From a virus, in IMG/VR virus record IMGVR_UViG_3300001419_000031, positions 1 through 29,064 of that record: a stretch of 29,064 bases of DNA. The stretch is one strand, 5' to 3'. The notes beneath the pieces were generated by a model. The model did not search any database. It saw only the letters and a list, made by a program, of their open reading frames with translations, and was not told the origin of the DNA. This document shows, piece by piece, positions 9,261 through 29,064 of the stretch; within the stretch, counting starts at the first letter, position 1, and every line of letters begins with the position of its first letter. The position numbers were made by a program, and so were the translations under genes.

Positions 9261-10439
9261 ATGGTGACTCCGGTTGTGTCCGGCGCTTGGAACGCGCAGC
9301 TCTACGCTCTCGAAGCGCTGCGCTACCTGAGCAACACTCGTCCGTTCCTGATGACCACGAACACTCGGTATGAGACCGAGCGTCGTGCGTTTGGCATTGG
9401 TGACACGATCACCATCAAGAAGCGGCAGACTCCGACGGTTCGGACTGATGCCGACCTGTCCTACGACTCGCTCGCTCCGGGAACGCTCCAGCTGACCGTG
9501 GACCAGTATCGGCACGCATCGAGCGAGATCGCCGACTGGGACCTCGCGTTCGCGGGCCAGGAGTGCCTTGACATGCATGTCTTCCCGGCGGTTGATGCGC
9601 TGGCGGACAACATCACCACGCACTGCCTCCAGAAGGCCTACCAGGGCGTTGGCCCTTACAGCGCGGTCAGCGACCCGGCTGCTGCTGCCGACATCACCGC
9701 CGCTCAGAAGGTGCTGATGACGAACAAGGCACCGATCCAAGACGAAGCCAACATGCACTTCGTCATCAGCCCGTCGATGAACGCCGAGCTCCTGAACCTG
9801 TCGGCGTTCACGCAGTGGCAGGGATCGGGTGCGACCGGCGTCCAGAACCAGCGGACCGGCCAGCTGACGCCGCGCTACGGCTTCAACTTCCACCCGACGC
9901 AGCTCCTGAGCACGCACGCTCCGGGCACGCTTGGCGGCTCGCCGCTGGTGAACGGCGCTGTCGCGAAGGGCGCAATCACGCTGTCGCTTGATGCGGCTGC
10001 GACCTCGGGCACCGTCAAGGCTGGTGATGCGTTCACCATTGCCGGCGACTCGACGGTCTACGTGGTCACGGAAGACGCGACGGCCAGCTCGGGCGCGATC
10101 ACCGGACTGAAGTTCGCGCCTGAGCTCCAGGTTGCGGCAGCCGACAACGCTGTGCTGGCCTTCGCGACGTTCCAGTCGGCGGTCGCTTCTGGCGACGTGA
10201 TGAACATCGCCTACCACAGCGATGCCTTCGCTTTCTGCGCGGTTCCGCTGCCGGTTGGCCCGCAGCACACGCAGGCCGCCGACATCGGCGTCGCGACCGA
10301 CCCGCAGAGCGGTCTCTCGCTGCGCGTGGTCATGGCCTGGGACGCCGCGAGCCGCAAGTCGAAGATGACCGTGGACGCGCTGTTCGGGTTCAAGGTCCTG
10401 AACCCGATGCTCGCCGTTCGCGCCTACCAGACCATCTGA
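9261..10439 (+). CDS. Major capsid protein, P22 coat type
   Basis: The 392-residue protein resembles the P22 gp5-type coat family. It has an N-terminal helix, then GIGDTITIKKRQTP, LQLTVDQYRHASSEI, and a C-terminal part with SGLSLRVVMAWD and VDALFGFKVLNPMLAVRAYQ. Between about 225 and 310 lies an insertion with VKAGDAFTIAG (252-262) and YVVTEDA, matching the KAGD-FTIAG segment seen in the inserted (I-) domain of this family. It forms the icosahedral shell on the scaffold. A Shine-Dalgarno sequence at 9248-9254 supports the start. The product appears complete. An HK97-fold assignment follows from the family. Confidence 0.85.
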   Translation: MVTPVVSGAWNAQLYALEALRYLSNTRPFLMTTNTRYETERRAFGIGDTITIKKRQTPTVRTDADLSYDSLAPGTLQLTVDQYRHASSEIADWDLAFAGQECLDMHVFPAVDALADNITTHCLQKAYQGVGPYSAVSDPAAAADITAAQKVLMTNKAPIQDEANMHFVISPSMNAELLNLSAFTQWQGSGATGVQNQRTGQLTPRYGFNFHPTQLLSTHAPGTLGGSPLVNGAVAKGAITLSLDAAATSGTVKAGDAFTIAGDSTVYVVTEDATASSGAITGLKFAPELQVAAADNAVLAFATFQSAVASGDVMNIAYHSDAFAFCAVPLPVGPQHTQAADIGVATDPQSGLSLRVVMAWDAASRKSKMTVDALFGFKVLNPMLAVRAYQTI

Positions 10440-10504: not shown

Positions 10505-10717
10505 ATGGATCGCATTGTGCCCACGCTGAAGCTCTGCAAGGGCGGTGACTATGTCGTCGTCAATCAGGCGGACGCAGAAGTTTGGCTCGCTGACGGCTGG
10601 AAGACTGCCGATGAGGTAGAATCAGCACCGGAAGCAGAAGAGCCGGTTGTCAATGAAAAGGCAGCTGCTCCTCGTCGGCGACGCACGCCGAAGGCCGACA
10701 ACCCTTTCGAGATCTGA
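10505..10717 (+). CDS. Small post-capsid protein, unknown
   Basis: The 70-residue product has a compact N-terminal part (1-40) with VVVNQADAEVWLADGWK, an acidic linker rich in Glu/Ala/Pro, and a basic RRRRTPK tail. Short proteins with a similar VN-D-W-GW pattern are common just after coat genes and before connector genes in phages. Their role is not established; decoration or neck functions are possible. The strong Shine-Dalgarno site suggests substantial expression. It ends three bases before the next start. Confidence 0.6.
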   Translation: MDRIVPTLKLCKGGDYVVVNQADAEVWLADGWKTADEVESAPEAEEPVVNEKAAAPRRRRTPKADNPFEI

Positions 10718-10720
10718 TCA

Positions 10721-13700
10721 ATGGCAGCACCCGCCGCTCCTTCTGCTGTCACACTCGCCGGCGACCACAAGGCTCTGACCGCTGCGTGGACTCCGGCAGA
10801 CGAAACCGAGACCCAGTTCGAGGTTCAGTCCAGCCTCGACGATGGATCGACTTGGAGCGGCACCTACTACTACGCAGCCGGCGTCACGTCGGCGACGTTG
10901 CTTGAGTCTGACGATGACGTGACCGCCAAGGTGCGCGTCCGCGCGACGAACGGAGACGGCAGTAGCGCGTGGGTCGCTTCGACCAGCAAGGTCATTCCTG
11001 TCGCGCCGGCAGAGATCACCAACGACGGCACGGACGTGGTCCTGTTCGTCGGAGAGCTCGTGGACGGCCATGCGGTGGCCTTCAACGGTGCGGGCTTCAC
11101 GAACGCATTGCTCTCGGGTGTATCAGTCACGGGCGCAGCTACCCTGACGGCGGCCGCGCAGGCAATTCGTGAAAGGGCCGTTGCCACGCACGCGACGCAC
11201 TGGGCCAAGCGGTTGGCTGGTGCCTCGATGCCGTTCCGCGCTGATGTCGCGTCGCTGATCTGGGATCACGTCGGCAACTCGATCCCGATCACGGCGGTCG
11301 CAGCGGACACGCCGGAAGTCGGCCAGACGCAGATCACGATCGCCGGCCCGGTTGCACGCGATGTCGGTGCGACGTTCTGGATTCGTGTCAGGGGCACCGG
11401 CCTCTCTGACATGGACAACCTAGAGTTCAACGTTGAGGTGGCGAGCTCGACGGAGCTGGTCATCTCGGGCTTTGTGGCAAGCAGCTCCGCCAGCACGGGC
11501 TTTGTGGACCGACCAAGCCTCAACAACTACGACTCCGACCTGAACGGGCACACGAACTTCCGTGCTGGCGGTGCTCTTCCTTCCAAGACCTACGGGTTCG
11601 AGGAAGAGGTCCTGCGCTACATGCAGGACAGGCGATCGCTTGCGCTCGGTGACAGCACCGGCGTGCCGACGATCGCGATCAAGCTAGGCAACCCGCAGCC
11701 GCTGATGAGTCGCGTTGTCGGCACTGCGAGCACGACGGCGCGCTGGTCACCTGATCTGACTGGCATCGCCAACAACAGCTACGACCAGCTCTCGCGCATC
11801 CTGACGGACGCCAAGGCGCTGATCGACGAGCGGGGCGCGACGCTGACGCCTCCGCCCTACCGGATCGCCGGCATCGTGATGATGCACGGCCTGAACGAGA
11901 CATCCGGCGACATCACCAAGATCCGCGCGATCAAGAACGTCGCTGCCGTGACCGTCACCGCTGATGTCGTCCGCATCCGCACGAGCACGGCGCACGGGAT
12001 GACGAACGTCGCCACGAAGCTCTACAACCTTGCGCGCATCACCGGCATCGGCGGCACGCTTGGCGACGAGCTCAACGGCAAGATCCGTCCGATCTCGGTT
12101 GTCGATGACGATGAGTTCGACATCCTCGACTTCGATGCGACGGGTCTGTCAGGCACCGTTGCGGCCGGCTCGACGCTGGCTGACCTTGGCGCTCCCTGCT
12201 ACTGGTTCGACGACCTGATCAGCGCGCAGATCGACGCCGTCCGCGCGCTCGCCATCAGCAAGTTCGGGACAGGCCAGGATGACGACCTCGTGCCGGTCGC
12301 GCTGATCCGGCCAGACTACGACCCCGAATACGAAGCACTGCTCGTCGGCCAGGACTCGAAGCTGTCGCTGTCCGTTGTCCGCGCGGCGGTCGAATCTGTC
12401 GCCGGCCGCAAGTCGCGCGTGGGTGTCGTCAACATCGACGACGTGCCGCACCGCGGCGACCCCGGCGGCCTGAACTCGCAGTTCTACTTCGGCCACGACG
12501 GGAACCTGCTCGTCGGCCAGCGGATCATCGAGTCGCTTGCGCGGCCTGTCTCGCTGACGACGACAGGCACGCCGAGCATCGTGGTCCCGATCATCGGGCA
12601 CTCGTTCGTGCAAGGGCGCAGCCTGCTCGCTGCCGGCTACAACTCCGACCCCGAGCTGATCAGCAAGCAGTCCAACCCGCAGAACGGCATGTTCGCTTGG
12701 AACATGACCACGCAGGCAATCGAGCCTCTGGTCCTCGATCCAGACATGCTCTCGGGCACCTACAACGGCTACACGAACCTGACCAGCAGCTCGGTCTACC
12801 ACCCGGGCGGATGGAACACTGCGAGCTTCCAGGTGGCCTACCTGCAAGAGCTCAAGATCAGGTTCCCTGACCACAACATCTACCTGCTCAACCTTGGCGT
12901 CAACGGATCGACGGCAGCCACGCACGAGACCGCGCTGACCAGCGGCGACGTGATCGAGTCTGTGACGGTCGCGTCTGGCGTCGTGACGATCAAGATCACT
13001 CTCCGCGCTGGCCAGAAGCCGATCAAGCGGACATCGACGTTCCCGGTCACGATCAGCGGAGTCACTGGCCTATCCACGTCGATCAACGGCAGCTTCACGG
13101 CAACGCCGATCAACGTCTCGACGACCGCGAACCTGCAAGGCACGCAGGAGTTCACGATCAACGTCTTCACAAGCGGGACGCCTGTCCTGACGGATGCCCG
13201 AGCCAAGTTCCCGGAGCCGATCTGGGACCCGAGCGCGAACGACATCTGGGATCACTTCGAGGCACAGACGGCCGCGTTCTTCGACGCCATGCACGCTGCC
13301 GGGATTCGTCCCGACTGCCGATGCGCCGCGATCGCGCTCGCCGAGAACGACATATTCCGGCAGACGGACGTGGAGAGCTACAAGGCCGCGATGCGCCGGA
13401 TCATCAACGGGCTGGTCACGCTCTACACGACCCGCACGCAGCCGCGCAACGACATCGCCATCTCGCTCATGAAGGCTGTGAGGCACGGCAGGTTCACCGG
13501 CAGCACCGACACGCTCTCTGAATACGAGGCAGCGCAGACGGCTCTTGCCGGCGAATACCCGAACGTCACGCTGGTCAACGTGGACGAGAACAACGACCGG
13601 CTGCTCGATCCGGTCACGATCAGCACCGACAACATCCACCCGGACTACAAGGGCTACGTGGCTCTCGGCTACCAGCTCGCCAAGGCGCTCGACAACGTGC

Positions 13701-13792
13701 CGAACTGGGATGCGCCGCGTGACACGAGCCTGTCAGGCAGCGGATCGGTTGCGGCGAGTTCCAGCGTGATCGGTGGAGGTGTCACCCCATGA
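10721..13792 (+). CDS. FN3 plus tandem SGNH-hydrolase-like protein (putative glycan esterase)
   Basis: The 1023-residue protein begins with a fibronectin type III domain (about 5-93). Two SGNH/GDSL-like domains follow. The second (about 620-1010) has a full motif set: GHSFVQG with Ser628, LGVNGST (725-731), LAEND with Asn876, and DNIHPD with Asp970 and His973. The first (about 105-610) keeps similar landmarks (GELVDG at 111, NGHTN at 275, HGLNE with Asn392, FGHDG with His592), but Leu113 and Tyr589 stand where Ser and Asp are expected. Small beta-domains seem inserted at about 188-255, 405-485 and 744-828. Such enzymes usually remove acyl groups from glycans. Its place between coat and connector genes suggests a virion protein. 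ATGA overlap with the next gene. Confidence 0.75.
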   Translation: MAAPAAPSAVTLAGDHKALTAAWTPADETETQFEVQSSLDDGSTWSGTYYYAAGVTSATLLESDDDVTAKVRVRATNGDGSSAWVASTSKVIPVAPAEITNDGTDVVLFVGELVDGHAVAFNGAGFTNALLSGVSVTGAATLTAAAQAIRERAVATHATHWAKRLAGASMPFRADVASLIWDHVGNSIPITAVAADTPEVGQTQITIAGPVARDVGATFWIRVRGTGLSDMDNLEFNVEVASSTELVISGFVASSSASTGFVDRPSLNNYDSDLNGHTNFRAGGALPSKTYGFEEEVLRYMQDRRSLALGDSTGVPTIAIKLGNPQPLMSRVVGTASTTARWSPDLTGIANNSYDQLSRILTDAKALIDERGATLTPPPYRIAGIVMMHGLNETSGDITKIRAIKNVAAVTVTADVVRIRTSTAHGMTNVATKLYNLARITGIGGTLGDELNGKIRPISVVDDDEFDILDFDATGLSGTVAAGSTLADLGAPCYWFDDLISAQIDAVRALAISKFGTGQDDDLVPVALIRPDYDPEYEALLVGQDSKLSLSVVRAAVESVAGRKSRVGVVNIDDVPHRGDPGGLNSQFYFGHDGNLLVGQRIIESLARPVSLTTTGTPSIVVPIIGHSFVQGRSLLAAGYNSDPELISKQSNPQNGMFAWNMTTQAIEPLVLDPDMLSGTYNGYTNLTSSSVYHPGGWNTASFQVAYLQELKIRFPDHNIYLLNLGVNGSTAATHETALTSGDVIESVTVASGVVTIKITLRAGQKPIKRTSTFPVTISGVTGLSTSINGSFTATPINVSTTANLQGTQEFTINVFTSGTPVLTDARAKFPEPIWDPSANDIWDHFEAQTAAFFDAMHAAGIRPDCRCAAIALAENDIFRQTDVESYKAAMRRIINGLVTLYTTRTQPRNDIAISLMKAVRHGRFTGSTDTLSEYEAAQTALAGEYPNVTLVNVDENNDRLLDPVTISTDNIHPDYKGYVALGYQLAKALDNVPNWDAPRDTSLSGSGSVAASSSVIGGGVTP

Positions 13793-14301
13793 CAGCGACG
13801 GCATACATCGCGGCGGCTGACGTTGAGACCTACTTCGCCAACTACGGCGAGGTCCCGGCTGTCTGGACGGCTGCAACGTCTACGCAGCAGGCCCAAGCCA
13901 TCGAGGTTGCCTCGCGCTGGATCGACTTCGAGTTCGGTATGCGCTGGAAGGGTCGCCGCACGAGCTCAAGTCAGATCCGCGACTGGCCTCGCACGGGAGT
14001 CTACGACCGCGACAACTACGCGGTCAGCTCCACGACCACGCCGACGGCCGTCCGCAACGCAGCCGCAGAGGCTGCCGTCCTCCACCTGTCGGGCACGCTG
14101 ACCACGTTCGGCAGCACGTCCGACGCGGTGCGGATCAAGTCCGAGACCATCAGCGCCGGCGGATCGTCGATCTCGGTGACGTTCATGGGCGGTAAGGCCG
14201 AGACTCCAGCCGACAGCAAGAAGTTCCCGAAGATCGAGGCCATGCTCATCGACCTGCTCGAAGACTACGGCGGCTCGGTCCAGTGGAGCCCGACGCTGTG
14301 A
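13789..14301 (+). CDS. Head-tail connector, DnaT-like family
   Basis: The 170-residue protein shows helices with ASRWIDFEFGMRWKGRR (about 44-60), then QIRDWPRTGVYDRD, and AVRNAAAEAAVLHL. This pattern matches the phage family annotated as DnaT-like ssDNA-binding protein, which in structural clusters acts as the gp6-type adaptor below the portal. The DNA-binding name comes from the family label and need not apply. It lies between the SGNH protein and the closure protein with ATGA and GTGA overlaps. The connector role is inferred mainly from order. Confidence 0.75.
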   Translation: MTATAYIAAADVETYFANYGEVPAVWTAATSTQQAQAIEVASRWIDFEFGMRWKGRRTSSSQIRDWPRTGVYDRDNYAVSSTTTPTAVRNAAAEAAVLHLSGTLTTFGSTSDAVRIKSETISAGGSSISVTFMGGKAETPADSKKFPKIEAMLIDLLEDYGGSVQWSPTL

Positions 14302-20600: not shown

Positions 20601-21226
20601 GCATCTCGCAGATCGAGCAGGCGCTCACGTCGGTCTTCACGGACTTCTTCGATGCACCGACGACTGGCGAGTCCCTGATCGTCGCTGCCGTAGGGCGCGT
20701 AGAAGCCGCTGTGCGCTCCTCTGCTGCGTTCGGCGGGGTAGGCGGAGTGGGAGTCGGCGTTGGCGGCGAGGCGGCTGATGGTGGCTTCTACGGGCCTCCT
20801 GTGCCTGCTGGCTTTGGCGCTGCCGGCGGCGGTGGCGGTGTGGTCGCTGGAGCTCAGGCTGGCGGATTCATCGGGCCGCCGATGACCGCTGCCGCATCAG
20901 GCGGGCTCTATGGGCCGCCAGTGCCGGATGGATTCCAGTTCGCCGGCGCGCAAGCACAGCCGTCCTTCTGGGACAGCTTCACCAGCAACCTCGGCACTGC
21001 CTTCGCCGGCGCGGCGATCTCGTTCGCGTTCAGCCTTGCTGCCAGCAGGCGTTCCGGTGACGGTCCTGAGCGCGCGCCCGGGTTCGGCGTGATTGGCCTT
21101 GAGGACCGCTTCGGCAGAGGCACCTACAACGACAACCGGAACGTCACGAACATCATCTCGCCGACGCCGCGCATCGCGCAGCAGAACTTCCGGCAGCAGG
21201 CCGAGCAACGACTTCGGCGATTCTGA
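17648..21226 (+). CDS. Tail tape measure protein (TP901 type)
   Basis: The 1192-residue protein sets tail length. An N-terminal coiled coil (about 10-70) precedes a TP901-type core (about 135-310) with LSQVQAISRATVPELERI, many Ala-rich helices and GIKASRAGTGLAGILRRL. A hydrophobic stretch (about 462-496) is a candidate membrane-active segment used during DNA entry. Long coiled coils (about 500-930) follow. The C-terminus has Gly-rich linkers with three GPP repeats at residues 1045, 1072 and 1085. With about 0.15 nm per residue, the tail would be near 180 nm long. Sections at about 17650-17960 and 19130-19680 are less GC-rich than the rest, hinting at recombination. Confidence 0.92.
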   Translation: MAEIRESIVLEVKSEGAQQSAQQLTFAFDKLSDELANTEKKLDGASSASDELSRAEKKLGDEAGKATKAVKQQRDELGRFVGGANQAGRSLDVFSRRFRETANRAREAVGPLTRIASLFAGGLGVRAVSDSLASFDRGLSQVQAISRATVPELERIRQVSLDLGAATSKSASEALQGAVELARAGFSAVEVPQALPATLNLSVTAGLDLARASEIAANAIRQFALNADDTVRVTDALTVVANNASTDVQQLADALGFAGPLAASFGLDIEQTAAALGAISDGGIKASRAGTGLAGILRRLVDPSKEARQEFDRIGIAIQDLDPRTNDFANVVDRLGEAYRNGADFTQIFEAEQIAAAIVLARLEERYDSLLTKQRESTDAAGEQADAFGRDLQGAFDRFGSTLEAITLKAGDQGLGLALKQVTEFGIETLQVLGGLDDSSRDVSDGAQLAASAIEGVGVALGALLALSGGAALIASLANPFVAAAAAVGVLVTAVRSASRELKELEQSSVDVSNSIETAIKNSAEFAAELEKLSRIGGLRFEAQTSQDTERFLTTLINRTVQLADETRRLAADPSARLIVNSFSDLNNQIQEAEDNVNSLQRQLSGLLDIGPPREEFGGELDLFVRQTTKLRKEIVDAKAELDILVGSARQSRGITFIPIGEDIRLIAEQAGLLDQLAEAEKRATEGATTLEDRVSLLTTAQERLSASLDQVNGKSREAAKAAGEAADATNRQAEAARELADQQARQQFDASIAGLRQQIELIESRTKALRDAGAEQGRFLDVLREQENEDATRTLALQEIARLESQNVEITEERTQAIFDQAAALVAAQSGQQALIEALRDEFREREKLDRAAGRGASRARERDFDAEQAQRRAAQAQEQAEAIARGLQLEALSYSRTREEVERLRLEEQLRGTEVSENLKDEIRLIQQQTEEIRASREAAAAIGSSLAGGVGDALRTLRESGSGADALIAGLQGVSDRIFQASISQIEQALTSVFTDFFDAPTTGESLIVAAVGRVEAAVRSSAAFGGVGGVGVGVGGEAADGGFYGPPVPAGFGAAGGGGGVVAGAQAGGFIGPPMTAAASGGLYGPPVPDGFQFAGAQAQPSFWDSFTSNLGTAFAGAAISFAFSLAASRRSGDGPERAPGFGVIGLEDRFGRGTYNDNRNVTNIISPTPRIAQQNFRQQAEQRLRRF

Positions 21227-22284
21227 TGGCATTTCACGACACAGCCTTCCTTCCCGTCGAATACAGCTACGGCTCTGCCGGCGGGCCGAGTCACGAGACG
21301 GTCATCCAGCAGACGCCGAACGGGCGCTCGCTGCGGATCGCGCGATCGGACGATCCGATCATGCGCTACCAGATCGACCTGCGCGTGCTCGATGAGAACC
21401 ACATCAGGATCGGTCCGCTCATCAACTTCGTGCGCGCGCGGCGAGGATCGCTTCACGGCTTCCGGTTGCTCGACTTCGCCGATCACTCGACGAACACCAC
21501 GCACATCGGCCAGATCGACGTGGACGACCTCGATGCTCGGCACGAGCTCGGCATCGGCGACGGGACGCAGGCCGTCTACTCGCTGATCAAGATCTACACG
21601 GACTCCGGCGAGTCTGTGACCCGTCGCATCGAAAAGCCGATGCGCGTCGCCGAAGCGAACACGATCAGCAAGATCTCGTGGCTGGCAAACGCCACGCGCA
21701 CCGTGTGGGTCTGGGTTGATGGCACGCTGAAGACTGAGGGCACGCACTACACCGTCGATTACGCGAACGGCAAGATCACGTTCGTGACTCCGCCCGCTCT
21801 CGGCGAGTCCGTTAAGTGGGCCGGATACTTTGCGGTGCCTGTCTTCTTCGGCCCGGAGGTGGACAAGTTCCTGCGGATTTCTGCGAGCAGCTACGCGGAG
21901 CGGCAGACTGACACCATCACGATGATCGAGACGAAGCAGGACACGGCATACTTGGCAATGGAGCGAGATCCACGAGGTGCAAAGCGTTGGGTTGTTTCTG
22001 CGTCCACCGTCGTTCACCAGCTCAGCTTCTACGATGGGCAAGTCCAGCTGTTCAATGCGGACGCCGTCGGAGCCAGCATCGACATCCATATGCCGGAGGC
22101 CGCCGACTGGATGCTAGGAGGGCCGCTGTTCTTCATCGGCAACAACGGCTCCACCGAGAACCTCGTCGTCAAGACCTACGGCGGTGCTGCCACGCTCTTC
22201 ACTCTCGGGCCTAGCGCGTCCGTCTCGATGTTCCTCTGCCCGGATGGTTCCGGCGGATATGACTGGGTCATCGTGAACGCATGA
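21226..22284 (+). CDS. Distal tail protein, DUF2460 (GTA gp12-like) with extra beta-domain
   Basis: The 352-residue protein begins with a DUF2460 domain (about 1-235). Landmarks are FHDTAFLPVEYSYGS, RSLRIARSDDPIMRYQID, ARRGSLHGFRLLDFADHS and YTVDYANGKITFVTPP, all close to the GTA gp12 family that forms the ring between tail tube and hub. Residues 254-352 are an extra beta-rich domain not usual in the family (with IDIHMPEAADWMLGGPLFF). A similar unit seems to form the next gene. TGATG with the tape measure and ATGA with the next gene show coupled translation. Confidence 0.88.
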   Translation: MAFHDTAFLPVEYSYGSAGGPSHETVIQQTPNGRSLRIARSDDPIMRYQIDLRVLDENHIRIGPLINFVRARRGSLHGFRLLDFADHSTNTTHIGQIDVDDLDARHELGIGDGTQAVYSLIKIYTDSGESVTRRIEKPMRVAEANTISKISWLANATRTVWVWVDGTLKTEGTHYTVDYANGKITFVTPPALGESVKWAGYFAVPVFFGPEVDKFLRISASSYAERQTDTITMIETKQDTAYLAMERDPRGAKRWVVSASTVVHQLSFYDGQVQLFNADAVGASIDIHMPEAADWMLGGPLFFIGNNGSTENLVVKTYGGAATLFTLGPSASVSMFLCPDGSGGYDWVIVNA

Positions 22285-22709
22285 AGACCACGCGCGCAGC
22301 AGCTGAGTTTGGCGGCGCGGCTCGCTGGCTGAACCAGACAACGCAGGACCGCAGGGTTCACCCTGCGCACTACCGGCTCTACGTCGTGAGCACGGCCGGA
22401 TCGGGTGACATCATTGACCTCGTGCTGCCGTCCGTTGAGGAGGCGCACAAGATGCTCGCCGGCACCACGCTCTACGCGCTGAACCGTGGCATCCAGGGCA
22501 ACCTGCGCTTCAAGCTGGCGTCGGGCTACTACTGGAACTTCACCGGCTCAGTCTGGCAGGGCACAGCGACCAGCGCGTGCCTGATCGGTCCAGGCTACAT
22601 CGGCAAGGCCGTCTACTTCGGCAGGCCAGCGTCCGGCGTGCCCGTGGACATGACGGACTTCCGCTGCTTCAAGCTGCAATCCAACACCCGCATCATGACC
22701 ATCGGATGA
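22281..22709 (+). CDS. Beta-rich tail tip protein, related to the DUF2460 extension
   Basis: The 142-residue product contains IIDLVLPSVEEAHKMLAGTT (about 38-57), which aligns by eye with the extension of the preceding protein (IDIHMPEAADWMLGG), including the following N-G-N-L-K pattern. It lies between the DUF2460 and DUF2163 genes, where RcGTA has no gene. ATGA overlaps on both sides. A baseplate accessory or host-contact role is likely by position; no named family is recognised. Confidence 0.6.
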   Translation: MKTTRAAAEFGGAARWLNQTTQDRRVHPAHYRLYVVSTAGSGDIIDLVLPSVEEAHKMLAGTTLYALNRGIQGNLRFKLASGYYWNFTGSVWQGTATSACLIGPGYIGKAVYFGRPASGVPVDMTDFRCFKLQSNTRIMTIG

Positions 22710-23665
22710 TTGACGTTCCCGCAGCACTGGTTCCGAGTCGCGCGTCGAGGTCGCTACAGATCTCGAAGTGCTATGCGATCATCGCGGTCAACGCGACGAC
22801 TCAGCTGCGCTGGGATCTAACGGACAACCAGCACGACATCCTGACCGTCGGATCGGACGGTTCGGTTGTCACGTATCAGGCTGCGAACGTCGTCGTCTCT
22901 CAGCCTCGCCGGCGTCAGTCGGGGATTCGATCAAACTCTGCCGAGATACAGATCGGGCTTGATGACCTGACCGGCGTCACCAAGGCCGACATCGACAAGG
23001 ACCTGCTGATCGGCGCGCGCGTCGTTGAGCTTGAGGTCGATGCGCTGCACCCGTGGATCTTCCACCGTCGGTTCTCGTGGTATGTCTCGGACGTTCGACA
23101 CGGCAAGGGCGTCGCGATCTTGTCGCTTGTCGGCATCAGCTCGAAGTTCCAGTCAATGGTCGGCGAGTCGATCACGACGCGCTGCCAGAACAAGTTCTTC
23201 AACTTCAACTGCAACAACGGCAACTCGCTGTCGTCGGTGCTTGAGGGCGGCACGCAGAAGTTCGGGTTCCGCGAATACAAGACAGCATCCGATCCGACGT
23301 ATCTGGGTCGGCGTCGCGTGCGGATCATGGAGGACGCCGACACGTTCCCAACCGACAGCCTGACGGCGGCTGATTGGTGGGCGCACGGCACGCTCAAGTT
23401 CGTCAGCGGCCCAGCTGCCGGCCAGATCGTCTACGTGGAAGCCAACGACCAGCCGTTCACGTCTGGCGGATTCCTATACTGCGACCTGACGCTAGCAACT
23501 CCGCTGGCGTTCAATCCGACATCGGGCAACGACCTAGAGCTGCGCGTCGGCTGCGGGCGGTATCTGGCTGTCTGCCGTGACAAGTTCAGCAACCTTGACA
23601 ACTTCCGTGGAGATCGCGACGTTGCCGGATCGGACAACCTCCAGCGCACGCCGTCTGCCGATTGA
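22706..23665 (+). CDS. Tail hub protein, DUF2163/BR0599 (GTA gp13-like), probable Fe-S binder
   Basis: The 319-residue protein has an N-terminal DUF2163 domain (about 1-150) and a C-terminal BR0599-type domain ending in LRVGCGRYLAVCRDKFSNLDNF. Four cysteines follow a C-x8-C (160, 169) and C-x6-C (283, 290) arrangement, like the [4Fe-4S]-binding tail tip protein L of lambda. It forms the hub through which the tape measure and DNA leave. ATG 22706 makes an ATGA overlap and gives the natural IDVPAAL start. The protein is complete. Fe-S binding is inferred from spacing and family. Confidence 0.88.
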   Translation: MIDVPAALVPSRASRSLQISKCYAIIAVNATTQLRWDLTDNQHDILTVGSDGSVVTYQAANVVVSQPRRRQSGIRSNSAEIQIGLDDLTGVTKADIDKDLLIGARVVELEVDALHPWIFHRRFSWYVSDVRHGKGVAILSLVGISSKFQSMVGESITTRCQNKFFNFNCNNGNSLSSVLEGGTQKFGFREYKTASDPTYLGRRRVRIMEDADTFPTDSLTAADWWAHGTLKFVSGPAAGQIVYVEANDQPFTSGGFLYCDLTLATPLAFNPTSGNDLELRVGCGRYLAVCRDKFSNLDNFRGDRDVAGSDNLQRTPSAD

Positions 23666-23669
23666 CATC

Positions 23670-24077
23670 GTGCAGCGAGCTCGTGGCGCGATCGGCACGC
23701 CGTTCCGGCATCAAGGCCGGCAGCCGCATGTTGGTCTTGACTGTCTCGGGCTTGTCGTGCACGCGATCGGTTCTGGCGCCAAAGCCGTAGACCAGCGCGA
23801 CTACGCAACCGTCCCGGATTCCATCAGACTAGATGCCGCGCTGCGTCGGTATTTCGATGCCGTTGATGTCGATGATCCGACAGACGCGCCGGAAGGAAGC
23901 GTGCTGGCATTCTGTGTGTTCGGCGACCCGCACCGATCAGTGCGTCATCTCGGGATCAAGTCTGACCGTGGTATGATCCACGCTCGACATGGCGCTCGGA
24001 ACGCCGTCGTTGAGATCACGATCGGCCCGGCTTGGCATGATCTGTTCATCGGAGCGTATCAATGGCGAGCGCAGTAG
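23670..24077 (+). CDS. NlpC/P60 tail tip peptidase (GTA gp14-like)
   Basis: With the GTG at 23670 the product has 135 residues. It begins with the family's first helix and GTPFRHQG, then GLDCLGLV with the catalytic Cys (residue 25), VRHLGI with the catalytic His, and MIHARHG. These tail-associated peptidases cut peptidoglycan stem peptides during infection. The start is uncertain: GTG 23670 lies four bases after the hub stop and has no Shine-Dalgarno; GTG 23577 or 23607 would add up to 31 residues overlapping the hub gene. The gene order hub, peptidase, gp15-like protein is that of GTA and related phages. The last 16 bases overlap the next gene. Confidence 0.88.
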   Translation: MQRARGAIGTPFRHQGRQPHVGLDCLGLVVHAIGSGAKAVDQRDYATVPDSIRLDAALRRYFDAVDVDDPTDAPEGSVLAFCVFGDPHRSVRHLGIKSDRGMIHARHGARNAVVEITIGPAWHDLFIGAYQWRAQ

Positions 24078-26962
24078 GACAAGCGGCTGGAACCGCAGCA
24101 GCCGGCCCAGTGGGCGCGGCTCTCGGTGGGTCAATTGGCGGGCTGATTGACCAGCTATGGATGTCAAAGCTGATAGCTTCGACCCGTCAGCCGATCCGCG
24201 CCATTGACATCCCGATTTCGCACGCAACAGACGGCACGGCGTCCACGCTGATCTTCGGAGACTATGCTCGCATTCCGCTGCACCTGACGTGGACTTCGCG
24301 GCCTTGGGTCATCCAGCAGAGCGGCACCGACAAGCGAGGCATCCAGGCTCCAGACAAGTGGCTTGTGCAAGCGCAGTGGATGGCTGCGAACAACGCCATC
24401 GGCGAGTTTGATCAGCTGATTGCCGAAGGCAAGCGCATCTACACCAAGCCGTTCACGTCGGGTGACTCACTCACGACGGGCACAGATGCAAACATCCTGA
24501 CGATCCGCCAGACGAACAACACCGACTTCATCACGCGGTTCAACATCTACAACGCCAAGGACGGACTTGGCGATCCTGTTGATGCTGATCTTGCGGAGTT
24601 CCTTGGATCGCTCGACGAAGGCAGCATCACGCAGTTTGTGATCAGCTCGCCGTCGATCAGCATTCAGACGAAGGTCATCTCGTCTCGAATCACTGACGCT
24701 GCCGGCAACGCCGAGCTCAAGCTGGAGCTGGACACGCCCTATGACACGGGCGGCAGCACGTCGCCTTGGGGCATCTTGCTTGGGTTCTCCAGCACGATGG
24801 TTTCAGGCGTCAGCATCTCGTTGACGAACACCGCCGTCCAGTATGACCCAAAGGTCTTTCCTGGCGGTGCGGCCAGCGTAGAGCTGAACCTCAACGGCGC
24901 GATCAAGTCGTCGATCATGGTCTCGGCAATCGGCAGCGACAACGTGCCGAAGAACCGGAACCGCGCCTACGTTGTGTGCGATGAGTTTTTGCTGTCGGGA
25001 TTCGGAAACCGGATGCCGAACATGTCAGCCGTCGTGGCTGGTCGCACTGGCTTCCTGACGCTGAACGACACGGTCGATTACGTTGCGCGCAACCTGACAG
25101 GACTGAACTCGGCGCTGTCGAACAACGACAACGTGCCGGCAGATCAGATGGATGGTCTGGCCGTCTATGCGCCATTCGAGCCCGGCGAAGTTCTGGAGAA
25201 GCTGCGCGCGTCGAACGGTCTGCTCTGGCGAGAAGGCAACGCCGGGCACACATCCATCTACGGCGAGTTCTTCATGGACTCGTCGAGGTCGATCAACTTC
25301 ATCGACTACTTCGGCTTCAACGCTCGCCGGCCGTCAGAGGACTTCGAGGAAGTCGATCTCAAGCTCGGCCGCATCGACAGCAACGAGCGCATCAGGAAGG
25401 TGGAGATTTCGTTCTCCAACAAGTTCGACAGCTGGCAGCGAGGCGTCGAGGCCGAAGAGCTTGAGCACGTTCCGCTCGGCAAGGAAGTTCGCATCAACCT
25501 TGACGACATGGTGATGACGCGCGCGGCTGCAAAGACGATTGCGCGGAGGATGCTGCACGAGTCGTGGAACCGCACCTATCAGGTGAGCTGGATCGCGTCA
25601 TGGGAGCACGCCATCTTCCAAGAGGAAGACATCATCGGCTTTACTGACGACGCCGGCGATGTCTGGACGGTCATCGTTGATCAGATCGACGAGACGGCGG
25701 ACTTCTTTGTCGAGATCACCGGCTGGGTCATCGCGCCCGAGCAGCTGTCGGACAACCCATCCAGCCTGAGCTCCACGAACGACAGCGACCCGCGCTACGA
25801 CGAGGGACTGCCGCGCGTGCCGGTCGCCTACACTCCGCTGACGACCTACGTCGTGGACGTGCCACCGATCTACGATGAGCACGTAGGTGAACCGGGGGTC
25901 TACGTGGCTGCCTGCAACGTCGATCCCACGCTGGCCTTCCAGGGAGCCGTGGTCTTCGTCAAGCGGCCTTCGGATCAGTCCTGGCACGCTGAGGCCGTCA
26001 TCGAGACTGCGGCGACTGTAGGGCGAACCACGGACGCTCTCGCGAGCGTTGTCAGCACGGCCAGCTACGACACGGTCAACACCGTCAACGTCGAGCTCGA
26101 AGGCATCGGCCAGCTGGCGACGGTCACGGAGGCTGAGGTCGATGATGCGGTCAACCTCGCGCTGATCGGCACGGAGGTCGTTGGCTTCCGCGATGCCACG
26201 CTTGAGGCGGACGGAACCTACACTCTCGACCACCTGAGCCGCGGCCGGATGGCAACGGAGGATCAGGTTGGCACGCACGCGGTCGCCGAGCCGTTCGTGA
26301 TGCTGTCGGGTCTGACTTGGCTACCGCTGGCGGCTGAGGACATCGGCACGACGATCGAGGTCAAGATGGTCCCGCCGGGCGCCACGATCGACCAAGTGCA
26401 GCCGATCAGCTACACGGTCACGCTGCCGACGTGCGTGCCAGTGCCGCCGGCAGACGTGACGATGCTGGACAACGGCGACGGCAGCCTGACGGCCTCGTGG
26501 ACGTATCGAAGTCTGCACACGATCAGGTTCCGCAATCCGGCGCAATCTCCGGTGCTGGCTGGTGACACGGTGCAGGTCAGCGCATGGAACGGCACGATCA
26601 GCGGAGATGCCGACTATGTGGCGAGCGTGCTGGCGTCGCAGTCCACCTTGACGCTGACGTATCCTGCGAACGAGGGGCTGGAAGGTCCGACGATCAACGC
26701 GCAGGTGAAGCAGGTCTCGGCAACGTTCGGTGCAAGCTCTGCGGCATCGGCTAGTCTGTCGGCCAGCTACGTGCCGGTCGTGGACCTTGAGGACACGATC
26801 CTTGGGCTTGATGCTGGCACCGATAGCGGCGGCGAGTTCCTTGTGACCGCGGGCAGCCAAGAAACGCGATGGGTGCGCGCTGCGAACTATGGTAGCATCG
26901 ACAATGACTTCGGGTCTGTCGCCGATGCTGCGTCTTCCGTGTATGATTACGGGAGCCTCTGA
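24062..26962 (+). CDS. Large tail tip protein, GTA gp15-like
   Basis: The 966-residue protein begins with a Gly/Ala-rich hydrophobic segment (about 5-30), as is usual for this family. The body contains FGDYARIPLHLTW, a middle hub-like section (about 380-580) with EDIIGFTDDAGDVWTV, and EVVGFRDATL followed by LDHLSRGRMATEDQVGTHA (about 706-740), a signature of GTA gp15-type C-termini. An FN3-like domain follows (about 796-885). RcGTA gp15 is longer and has a TIM-barrel glycosidase-like part that I do not see here. It is the central tip protein that carries receptor-contact domains. It ends with a TGATG overlap. Confidence 0.82.
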   Translation: MASAVGQAAGTAAAGPVGAALGGSIGGLIDQLWMSKLIASTRQPIRAIDIPISHATDGTASTLIFGDYARIPLHLTWTSRPWVIQQSGTDKRGIQAPDKWLVQAQWMAANNAIGEFDQLIAEGKRIYTKPFTSGDSLTTGTDANILTIRQTNNTDFITRFNIYNAKDGLGDPVDADLAEFLGSLDEGSITQFVISSPSISIQTKVISSRITDAAGNAELKLELDTPYDTGGSTSPWGILLGFSSTMVSGVSISLTNTAVQYDPKVFPGGAASVELNLNGAIKSSIMVSAIGSDNVPKNRNRAYVVCDEFLLSGFGNRMPNMSAVVAGRTGFLTLNDTVDYVARNLTGLNSALSNNDNVPADQMDGLAVYAPFEPGEVLEKLRASNGLLWREGNAGHTSIYGEFFMDSSRSINFIDYFGFNARRPSEDFEEVDLKLGRIDSNERIRKVEISFSNKFDSWQRGVEAEELEHVPLGKEVRINLDDMVMTRAAAKTIARRMLHESWNRTYQVSWIASWEHAIFQEEDIIGFTDDAGDVWTVIVDQIDETADFFVEITGWVIAPEQLSDNPSSLSSTNDSDPRYDEGLPRVPVAYTPLTTYVVDVPPIYDEHVGEPGVYVAACNVDPTLAFQGAVVFVKRPSDQSWHAEAVIETAATVGRTTDALASVVSTASYDTVNTVNVELEGIGQLATVTEAEVDDAVNLALIGTEVVGFRDATLEADGTYTLDHLSRGRMATEDQVGTHAVAEPFVMLSGLTWLPLAAEDIGTTIEVKMVPPGATIDQVQPISYTVTLPTCVPVPPADVTMLDNGDGSLTASWTYRSLHTIRFRNPAQSPVLAGDTVQVSAWNGTISGDADYVASVLASQSTLTLTYPANEGLEGPTINAQVKQVSATFGASSAASASLSASYVPVVDLEDTILGLDAGTDSGGEFLVTAGSQETRWVRAANYGSIDNDFGSVADAASSVYDYGSL

Positions 26963-27114
26963 TGCCTCCAAAGAGCAAGAAGCAAGAGCGGCTGATGCGC
27001 GCGGTTCTGAACGATCCTGCCTTTGCCCGGCAGGTCGGTATCTCGCAGTCTGTCGCTCGCGAGTATCTTGGCGAAAAGCCGAAGAAGAAGGCACCTCGTA
27101 GGCGGGCGCGCTGA
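26962..27114 (+). CDS. Very small basic phage protein (50 residues)
   Basis: The frame from ATG 26962 to the TGA at 27112-27114 encodes 50 residues and is joined by TGATG overlaps to both neighbours. The sequence has KKQERLMRAVLNDPAFARQVG, with QSVAREYL and a basic KKKAPRRRAR tail; a closely similar K-Q-R-FM-A / FA-KVG / QSV-EY pattern recurs in small proteins of many tailed phages. The function is unknown; the basic tail suggests nucleic acid or partner binding. The double overlap makes it a convincing real gene despite its length. Confidence 0.75.
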   Translation: MPPKSKKQERLMRAVLNDPAFARQVGISQSVAREYLGEKPKKKAPRRRAR

Positions 27115-28160
27115 TGGCAGAACAGGTCCAGCTCAGGCGAGGCACGACGGCACAGCACTCGACGTTCACGGGTGCTGTCGGCGAACTCACGATCGACACG
27201 ACGAAGAATACCGGCGTCGTGCACGATGGCTCCACGGCTGGCGGTATCCCGCTTGCCAAGGAAGCGGCAATCCTCACGTCGCTTGAGGTGCGGAGCGGAA
27301 CTAGCGCGCGCGAGGCGTTGATCTACAACACCTACACCGACGCGAGCAACTACGAGCGCGCAGCGATCGGCTTTCAGACGCTGTCGAACACGCTGACGAT
27401 CGACACCGAAGCAGCCGGCACGGGAACGGTGCGTGGTCTGTCGATTGGCTCAGAGACGCTCTACATCGACCCGGCAGAGAACCGCGTAGGGATCGGACTC
27501 GACACGCCCTACGCGACGCTAACGGTGCGCTCGCAGGGCACCAACAACACACGCGGCATCGCTGGCGAGCATACCGACAACACCACGGCCTTCTCTCAGT
27601 TCAAGTTTGTTGGCCGCCGCTCGCGTGGATCGCACGGCTCGCCGTCTGCTGTGCTCGCTAACGACTCGCTCGTCAGCTTCAACGGCGCCGGCTACAAGGC
27701 AACGGACTGGTCTGACACTGTCGGCGGGCTCTACGTCTACGCGCGCGAGAACTGGACGGACACGGCCACGGGCACGTTCATTACGCTGCGCGGTCCGAAG
27801 CCCGGGACGACAACGCCGCAGGAGTGGGCTCGGTTCCAGTCTGACGCTGTGCAGTTTACGCCTGAGTGGACGGCAGCAGGCACGACGTATACGGCGCTCA
27901 AGGTCAACCCAACGAACACGGCAAGTGCTGCGGCGACGAAGCTGCTGGACCTTCAGATCGGCGGGACTTCGAAGGTTTCTGTCGGCAAGGACGGCGACAT
28001 CTCGACCGTCTCGTTCGCACAGTTCGCCGAGATCAGCACGCCATCGACGCCGGCCGAGAACGAGTGCCGGATCTATGCCAAGGACAACGGATCGGGATTG
28101 ACGCAGCTCGTCGTGCTGATGCCTGACGGCGTCGAGACCGTTCTTGCCACTCAGACCTGA
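27114..28160 (+). CDS. Tail fibre-like protein with Mtd-type N-terminus
   Basis: The 348-residue protein starts with QLRRGTTAQHSTFTGAVGEL and HDGSTAGGIPL (about 5-48), the Mtd-type N-terminal motif that anchors fibres to tails. A beta-rich middle follows, with RVGIGLDTPYATLTV (about 123-137), a trimeric-fibre signature. The C-terminus has ENECRIYAKDNG and LVVLMPDGVETVL, common at the ends of such proteins. It probably contacts the host surface. I see no variable-repeat or C-type-lectin end typical of diversity-generating systems. TGATG overlap at the start. Confidence 0.75.
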   Translation: MAEQVQLRRGTTAQHSTFTGAVGELTIDTTKNTGVVHDGSTAGGIPLAKEAAILTSLEVRSGTSAREALIYNTYTDASNYERAAIGFQTLSNTLTIDTEAAGTGTVRGLSIGSETLYIDPAENRVGIGLDTPYATLTVRSQGTNNTRGIAGEHTDNTTAFSQFKFVGRRSRGSHGSPSAVLANDSLVSFNGAGYKATDWSDTVGGLYVYARENWTDTATGTFITLRGPKPGTTTPQEWARFQSDAVQFTPEWTAAGTTYTALKVNPTNTASAAATKLLDLQIGGTSKVSVGKDGDISTVSFAQFAEISTPSTPAENECRIYAKDNGSGLTQLVVLMPDGVETVLATQT

Positions 28161-28161
28161 C

Positions 28162-28165
28162 GGAG
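28162..28165 (+). promoter_or_regulatory. Ribosome-binding site of the spike base gene
   Basis: GGAG lies six bases before ATG 28172, in an 11-base gap after the fibre gene. It supports this start. Confidence 0.5.
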
Positions 28166-28171
28166 ACACAG

Positions 28172-28429
28172 ATGACCGCGCCATCCATTTCCAACCACAA
28201 CAACCCAAGCCCGGCCGAGTATGCCGAGATTGTGACGCCTGCGTCTGCGGACCTGCCGGCGATCACGCGAGCCATCTACATTGCAGCGGCCGGCAACCTG
28301 ACCGTCGTGATGGCGGGCAAGGGCAACACGTCCACGGTGACGTTCAACAACGTCGTGGCCGGTAGCGTGCTACCGATTCGCGCTCGCCAGATCACGGCCG
28401 CACCAGCGAACACCGTCGCGCTTTACTGA
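28172..28429 (+). CDS. Spike base protein, GTA rcc01079-like
   Basis: The 85-residue product matches the small family annotated as spike base protein, RCAP_Rcc01079 type. It shows EYAEIVTPASADLPAITRAIY, a VTFNNVVAGSVLPIRARQI segment, and ends in the typical VALY. In Rhodobacter capsulatus GTA this protein (GhsA) forms the base of the head spikes that bind capsule. Here it lies in the main structural cluster rather than at a separate locus. The next gene starts four bases after the stop and may encode the matching spike fibre. Confidence 0.85.
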   Translation: MTAPSISNHNNPSPAEYAEIVTPASADLPAITRAIYIAAAGNLTVVMAGKGNTSTVTFNNVVAGSVLPIRARQITAAPANTVALY

Positions 28430-28432
28430 GCT

Positions 28433-29064
28433 ATGAACCTCGGCATCGGACTCGGCGTCACCAACTACCTGCGCGTCCCGACGGTTGCGCTGGACCCAGA
28501 TGCTGCCATCGCCGCGCTGTTCCAGACGGGAACGCCCGGGGTCTACCACGAAGGCGCATGGTATGACCCGTCCGATTCGGCGACGGTGTTTCAGGATGCG
28601 GCTGGGACTACGCCTGCTGGTGTGGGCGATCCTGTTGGGCTCATCCTGGACAAGTCGCAGGGGCTGGCGCTTGGGAGCCAACAGGTGGTCGATGGCGGGT
28701 TCACCGACATCGCAAACTGGCCCGCAGAGGGAACGCCAACGATCCGAGAGATCGACGCGAACGGCGACCTCCATATTTCCGGTGCTCACAACACGGGCGT
28801 GACTCAGCAGATACCCGGGCTTGCTACCGGCTGGCATGAGGTCACGATCGAAGCAAGGGTCGTCACCGGGTCGATCAAGTTCCAGATGAACTTCTCCGAA
28901 ACGATCGGCCCAGCAGTGTGGGGACCGACATTCAGCACGGCCACATACAGGGTCCTGCTGAATCAAGGCAGAAGGGACGTCAAGATCGCTTGTGGCGGGA
29001 CTGCCGAGTTTTACGTCCGCAGCATAAGCATCAAGCCACTAGCAGGCAATCACGCAAGCCAAAG
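28433..29064 (+). CDS. Probable spike or fibre protein, 3'-truncated by the window
   Basis: The open frame from ATG 28433 runs through the window end (210 complete codons). Residues 37-75 hold GVYHEGAWYDPSD, FQDAAGTTPAGVGDPVG and LILDKSQG, a motif widespread in phage fibre and spike proteins. A jelly-roll, carbohydrate-binding-like domain follows (about 81-200, with ANWPAEG and TGWHEVTIEARV). After it, LAGNHASQ resumes the usual continuation of the first motif. Position directly after the spike base suggests a spike fibre (GhsB analogue). The C-terminal part is not visible. Confidence 0.7.
   Translation, partial: MNLGIGLGVTNYLRVPTVALDPDAAIAALFQTGTPGVYHEGAWYDPSDSATVFQDAAGTTPAGVGDPVGLILDKSQGLALGSQQVVDGGFTDIANWPAEGTPTIREIDANGDLHISGAHNTGVTQQIPGLATGWHEVTIEARVVTGSIKFQMNFSETIGPAVWGPTFSTATYRVLLNQGRRDVKIACGGTAEFYVRSISIKPLAGNHASQ

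Follow-up and report, generated by a model that had tools for sequence, protein, structure and literature searches.

What would a large protein bearing the motifs of an SGNH hydrolase be doing when its gene lies among the head genes of a phage, between the coat and the connectors? The question is raised by a gene at 10721..13792 (+ strand, as are all features within it) in a virus record of 29,064 bases (G000), the whole of which is referred to here as the window. The gene is an intact ORF of 1023 aa with an ATG start, supported by the ORF call and by homologs at 100, 78, 79, and 61% identity. A sequence-only reading had divided the product into two tandem SGNH domains, an inactive first one and an active second one, designated here D1 and D2.

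Genomic setting and distribution of the gene

The window carries a siphovirus-like structural module with terminase, a DUF4055-type portal, a Mu F-like protein, scaffold, and P22-type coat, then a 70-aa protein, the 1023-aa gene, Ad1, Hc1, neck, tail terminator, tube, chaperone, and tape measure, and a tail tip resembling Rcc01695/Rcc01698. The upstream neighbor is the P22-type major coat protein (9261..10439, + strand; PF11651, E 2e-16; phrog_283, E 2e-51). Downstream lies the head-tail adaptor Ad1 (13789..14301, + strand; phrog_477, E 7e-32), the start of which overlaps the stop codon of the 1023-aa gene in an ATGA at 13789-13792. The small 70-aa protein between the coat gene and the 1023-aa gene (10505..10717, + strand) is present at the same site in three related contigs (L003, L005, and L007) at 41-46% identity; its C-terminal part is basic and Ala/Glu-rich, and it is the fastest changing among the compared genes. 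Every relative that covers this region shows the same order of coat, small protein, 1023-aa gene, and Ad1; the placement between coat and connector genes noted earlier is a fixed feature of these relatives. Dinoroseobacter phage R5C, Pseudanabaena phage Pan1, and Vibrio phage MAR10 are more distant and have a related coat protein, and no SGNH protein was found in them at the matching site. This absence indicates that the 1023-aa gene is accessory and was fixed in one lineage. R5C and Pan1 carry a DNA transfer protein at the matching site, which was checked as a possible counterpart of the 1023-aa protein and rejected.

Other features of the window were also noted. An exonuclease-like protein is encoded at 1051-2109, upstream of the terminase genes (phrog_284, E 5e-48). 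The tail tip at 21226-26962 is of the gene-transfer-agent type, on a siphovirus with a P22-type coat, and comprises a DUF2460 distal tail protein (Rcc01695 family), a Gp84/BR0599 hub, and a megatron-like protein with the Rcc01698 C-terminal domain. The tail cluster closes with a tail protein (27114-28160) whose first 66 residues match phrog_9648; it is a probable fiber.

Viral contigs were searched with profiles of the whole protein, D1, and D2 and with motif patterns, and the same few contigs were recovered each time: L002 at 100% identity, L003 and L004 at 78-79%, L005 at 61%, and fragments in L006 and L007. Searches of phage records and plasmids yielded no match. Nor did one profile scan and one motif scan, by which distant relatives would be missed, reveal a homolog among 84,980 species genomes. 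Pattern matches in L017 and L019 were discarded as no such protein was seen in either, and no sign of homology was seen for L025, a motif match viewed untranslated. Between the window and L003, the 1023-aa protein is 78% identical while the coat proteins are 95% identical; of the genes set against their counterparts in L003, L004, and L007, only the 70-aa neighbor is more divergent. Such rapid change relative to the coat is consistent with a host-facing role, although it does not prove one.

An intact catalytic motif and a putative degenerate counterpart

D2 (aa 616-1000; 12566..13720) is, as judged from its motifs, a classical SGNH hydrolase with an intact predicted site. Ser628 (12602..12604), the predicted nucleophile, follows the first strand in VVPIIGHSFVQG and belongs to block I, IIGHSFVQG. 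Gly726 lies in NLGVNGS of block II (LNLGVNGSTAATHE; 12884..12925), Asn876 (13346..13348), a predicted oxyanion-hole residue, lies in block III, ALAEND, and Asp970-x-x-His973 (13628..13639) is found in block V, DNIHPDYKGY. These five SGNH positions are invariant among four homologs, down to 61% identity. Moreover, aa 839-1003 match Lipase_GDSL_2 (PF13472) at E 7.6e-5 and 23.7 bits, below the curated cut-off of 32.9 bits, which is a library threshold and not a biological feature. Like members of this family, D2 carries Ser, Gly, Asn, and Asp-x-x-His in blocks I, II, III, and V, respectively, and these blocks follow one another in the usual order; it differs from the family in having GHS instead of GDS in block I and a beta module of about 85 residues after block II. 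Together, the motif invariance and the family match bear out the earlier assignment of an intact second domain, including its residues (S628 in IIGHSF, NGYTN at 682, N876 in LAEND, and D970/H973 in TDNIHPD).

Other family matches to D2 are weak. Two are to PHROGs, namely, phrog_4201 (tail fiber; E 5e-4, over the C-terminal stretch) and phrog_9703 (head decoration; E 0.003). The sialate O-acetylesterases (SASA/CE6; PF03629) match at E 0.024-0.1 (0.024 for aa 839-1003), but D2 lacks the hallmarks of that family, a Gln next to the catalytic Ser and an HQGE block III (PMC9487903), and has GHS and AEND in their place. A comparison with SASA through relatives of Escherichia coli NanS was abandoned, as nearly all matches were NanS-like and a useful profile was not obtained.

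D1 (aa 99-612; 11015..12556) is a putative degenerate SGNH-like domain, an assignment drawn from its missing site, its strand-helix order, and a marginal resemblance to D2. The place of the nucleophilic Ser in its block I, VVLFVGELVDG, is occupied by Leu113 (11057..11059) in all four homologs, within an invariant GEL. The NGHTN landmark (aa 275-279; 11543..11557) aligns without gaps with the NGYTN of D2. A putative block III, IVMMHGLNET (11873..11902), contains Asn392 and is invariant at H389, G390, N392, and E393, and a putative block V is S586-QFYFG-H592 (12476..12496). No catalytic Ser, Asp, or His is present in D1 of any of the four homologs. The residues of D1 named in the sequence-only reading are all in place (L113 in VGELVDG, NGHTN at 275, N392 in MMHGLNE, VVNIDD at 569-574, and Y589/H592 in FYFGHDG), and its claim that the site is lost stands; in the profile alignment, the register of block V is shifted by three from the one given there, with S586 and Y589, and not Y589 and H592, facing D970 and H973. 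H592, the only nearby His, is Gln in L003 and L004, and Asp-x-x-His is lacking in D1 under either register (S586/Y589 or Y589/H592).

The description of the first copy as decayed proved misleading. Between the window and L003, dN/dS is 0.21 for D1 and 0.16 for D2; against L005, the values are higher, about 0.4-0.5, and rough, with synonymous sites partly saturated. At a dN/dS of about 0.2, D1 is under purifying selection and is therefore no decaying relic. Invariant positions make up 80% of block I and 76% of block III, compared with a D1 mean of 51%. Thus, the former pocket region is among the better-kept parts of D1, which favors a binding role.

Additional modules and the relationship of the two halves

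The protein begins with a fibronectin type III (FN3) domain (aa 1-95; 10721..11005), a feature overlooked in the sequence-only reading and new here. Residues 17-99 match phrog_10519, a virion structural protein (E 2.7e-5), and aa 2-97 match PDB entry 9vsf (E 1.1e-5). The Foldseek matches of the full-length AlphaFold model are FN3 domains, and the model, of moderate confidence in this region (pLDDT about 45-65), places the FN3 fold at aa 1-95.

The two halves also contain inserted modules. Insert 2, in D1 (aa 404-488; 11930..12184), is the only confidently modeled part of that half (pLDDT about 70-80), and AlphaFold and Foldseek identify it as a beta module resembling the FCCH domain of E1 enzymes. 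Its predicted structure has the FCCH fold, with the FCCH-bearing ubiquitin E1 UBA6 as the best PDB match (E 2.6e-4), and close viral models are found among phage baseplate and fiber proteins; the Pfam E1_FCCH profile matches it at only E 0.16, below the cut-off. Insert 3, in D2 (aa 744-828; 12950..13204), is related to insert 2 (62 residues aligned by hhalign at E 0.003; score reached by 1/300 shuffles) and is likely a second FCCH-like module. The FCCH-like modules, too, had been missed before and are new here. A further segment of D1, insert 1 (aa 196-263; 11306..11509), is of uncertain nature: its similarity to insert 2 was reached by 11/300 shuffles, and a shuffle test revealed no similarity to insert 3. 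The loops bearing inserts 2 and 3, which follow block III in D1 and block II in D2, lie on the active-site side of SGNH folds, and the modules could therefore shape binding clefts.

Whether D1 shares the fold of D2 was assessed by several comparisons. Pfam and PDB searches matched D1 to no family, and its one PHROG match was below threshold and to a family of unknown function. AlphaFold modeling returned low confidence both for the full protein with four homologs (mean pLDDT 35) and for D1 with three homologs (mean pLDDT 33), in which insert 2 was the exception. Confidence is low everywhere but in the FN3 domain and in insert 2, and fold searches are therefore uninformative on the core of D1. 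The earlier alignment of the two halves by shared landmarks survives as a colinear, marginal resemblance that is weaker than had been implied. A profile-profile comparison of the whole halves was not significant (hhalign E 0.1). In an unselected core-to-core test, the score was reached by 8/300 shuffles (3% level), and the best match falls in the equivalent, C-terminal place. At the level of segments, the VVNIDD...G...G...L match scored above all shuffles (0/200), the NGxTN match was equaled by 2% of shuffles, and the strand matches of blocks I and III were weak but colinear; these segments were picked with the previously named landmarks in view, and their shuffle tests are biased in consequence. 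An alternative register that aligns the inserts of D1 and D2, with MMHGLNE as block II, was unsupported in the segment alignment.

Two readings of D1 follow from these data. We think it probable that D1 is SGNH-derived. The somewhat unlikely alternative is that D1 has another alpha/beta fold, that the landmarks are coincidental, and that D2 is the sole SGNH enzyme; it draws on the want of any Pfam or PDB match to D1, the nonsignificant comparison of whole halves, the failure of AlphaFold to yield a confident fold, and the differing locations of the inserts. The matches between the halves nevertheless occur in the order expected of a common fold, from the block I strand through NGxTN to the VVNIDD segment, the core score is rarely reached by shuffles, and the strand-helix order of D1 in the low-confidence full-length model resembles, and is compatible with, that of D2. 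The internal duplication proposed earlier would rest on the same marginal core resemblance, and the position of the inserts in different loops speaks against a straightforward tandem duplication, in recent time, of a domain that already carried them.

Proposed role and alternatives

As a joint explanation, a virion surface protein combining an FN3 anchor, an active SGNH esterase in D2, and a non-catalytic, glycan-binding D1 seems to us evenly poised between right and wrong. The 1023-aa product would be located on the surface of the virion of a siphovirus-like phage, where the FN3 domain probably anchors or spaces it on the head or neck. D2 would remove acyl groups, probably acetyl, from a host surface polysaccharide, an activity suggested by the site seen in its sequence, with Ser628-His973-Asp970 and an oxyanion hole of Gly726/Asn876 as the predicted chemistry. 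D1, as a diverged SGNH-like domain maintained by selection, would most likely bind the same or a related glycan without catalysis, and the FCCH-like modules near block III of D1 and block II of D2 could contribute to the respective clefts. In combination, holding and deacetylating the polysaccharide may help the phage to stay or move at the cell surface until its tail engages. In favor of the model are the invariant motifs and GDSL match of D2, the missing site and purifying selection in D1, the fixed head-operon position with its ATGA overlap, the rapid change relative to the coat, and the FN3 and FCCH-like modules. Counting against it are the low-confidence models of D1 and its want of Pfam and PDB matches, the lack of such a protein at the matching site in R5C, Pan1, and MAR10, the tail-fiber family among the weak matches of D2, and the higher dN/dS against L005. 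A bolder form of this proposal, "grip and strip," in which a pseudo-esterase kept as a lectin and an active SGNH deacetylase form one chain on the capsid or neck and the head processes host polysaccharide, is speculative and, in our estimate, unlikely.

SGNH esterases on phage virions are already known, usually as tail fibers; the position in the head operon and the pairing of a domain that lacks the site with one that keeps it are new. Examples are the deacetylation of LPS by G7C gp63.1 and of O-polysaccharide by Possum gp66 (PMC9569702) among the known proteins, and tailspikes with esterase activity have been described (PMC11654681). These two proteins and the fibers of Klebsiella prophages are likewise phage SGNH esterases acting in glycan deacetylation, but they are located in the tail, whereas the 1023-aa gene lies between coat and adaptor and its product starts with FN3 and contains a partner domain that has no active site. 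In Erwinia phage RisingSun, gp136 (phrog_9703) has a C-terminal SGNH domain, to which the weak head decoration match of D2 refers; it differs in its length (493 aa) and N-terminal part, and no inactive partner was seen in it. RefSeq names the same protein (L020:4723-6204) "head decoration"; the original GenBank record has "putative SGNH/GDSL hydrolase."

Two other accounts of the gene product were weighed against location on the head or neck. It could be a tail-side or neck fiber, a receptor-binding protein merely encoded among head genes, with D2 an ordinary SGNH tail-fiber deacetylase. The best PHROG match of D2 outside head families is indeed the tail fiber phrog_4201, and SGNH domains are among the commonest enzymatic domains of Klebsiella prophage receptor-binding proteins (PMC13123978). 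Pseudomonas phage Psa374 offers a parallel in gp053, an SGNH protein detected in virions by mass spectrometry and called a tail fiber despite a gene number just a few ahead of those of portal and coat (PMC9796965); the likeness is by description, and gp053 is reported as a single SGNH-hydrolase. Against this account, the window has a distinct tail-tip and probable fiber cluster at 21226-29064, the 1023-aa protein has no recognized tail-attachment domain but an FN3 N terminus, and its gene keeps a fixed place next to Ad1 on the coat side; we regard a tail-side fiber as an unlikely explanation. A non-structural function, as a late intracellular or released esterase acting, for example, in lysis or in envelope modification against superinfection, appears very improbable. 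Phage esterase genes outside structural modules do exist, as in Arthrobacter phage Anekin (genes 31-32, near integrase and endolysin), but the FN3 domain, the FCCH-like modules with their baseplate and fiber counterparts, the size of 1023 aa, and the coupling to the adaptor gene all suit a virion protein.

Separate precedents exist for the inferred steps of the virion surface model, by analogy with other systems: virion location and deacetylation in the SGNH proteins above and, elsewhere, carbohydrate-binding domains in neck proteins and non-catalytic binding by an SGNH site. Lactococcal neck proteins bear a domain resembling the carbohydrate-binding module of carbohydrate esterases (PMC6669499), and the SGNH site of Clostridium thermocellum CtCE2 also binds cellulose non-catalytically (PMC2661963), although CtCE2 keeps its Ser-His dyad and D1 has neither residue. 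Tail fibers are where esterases of phages are usually looked for. If the virion surface model is true, the capsid or neck would itself act on the host surface, and D1 would represent an enzyme-derived module with which a phage binds glycans.
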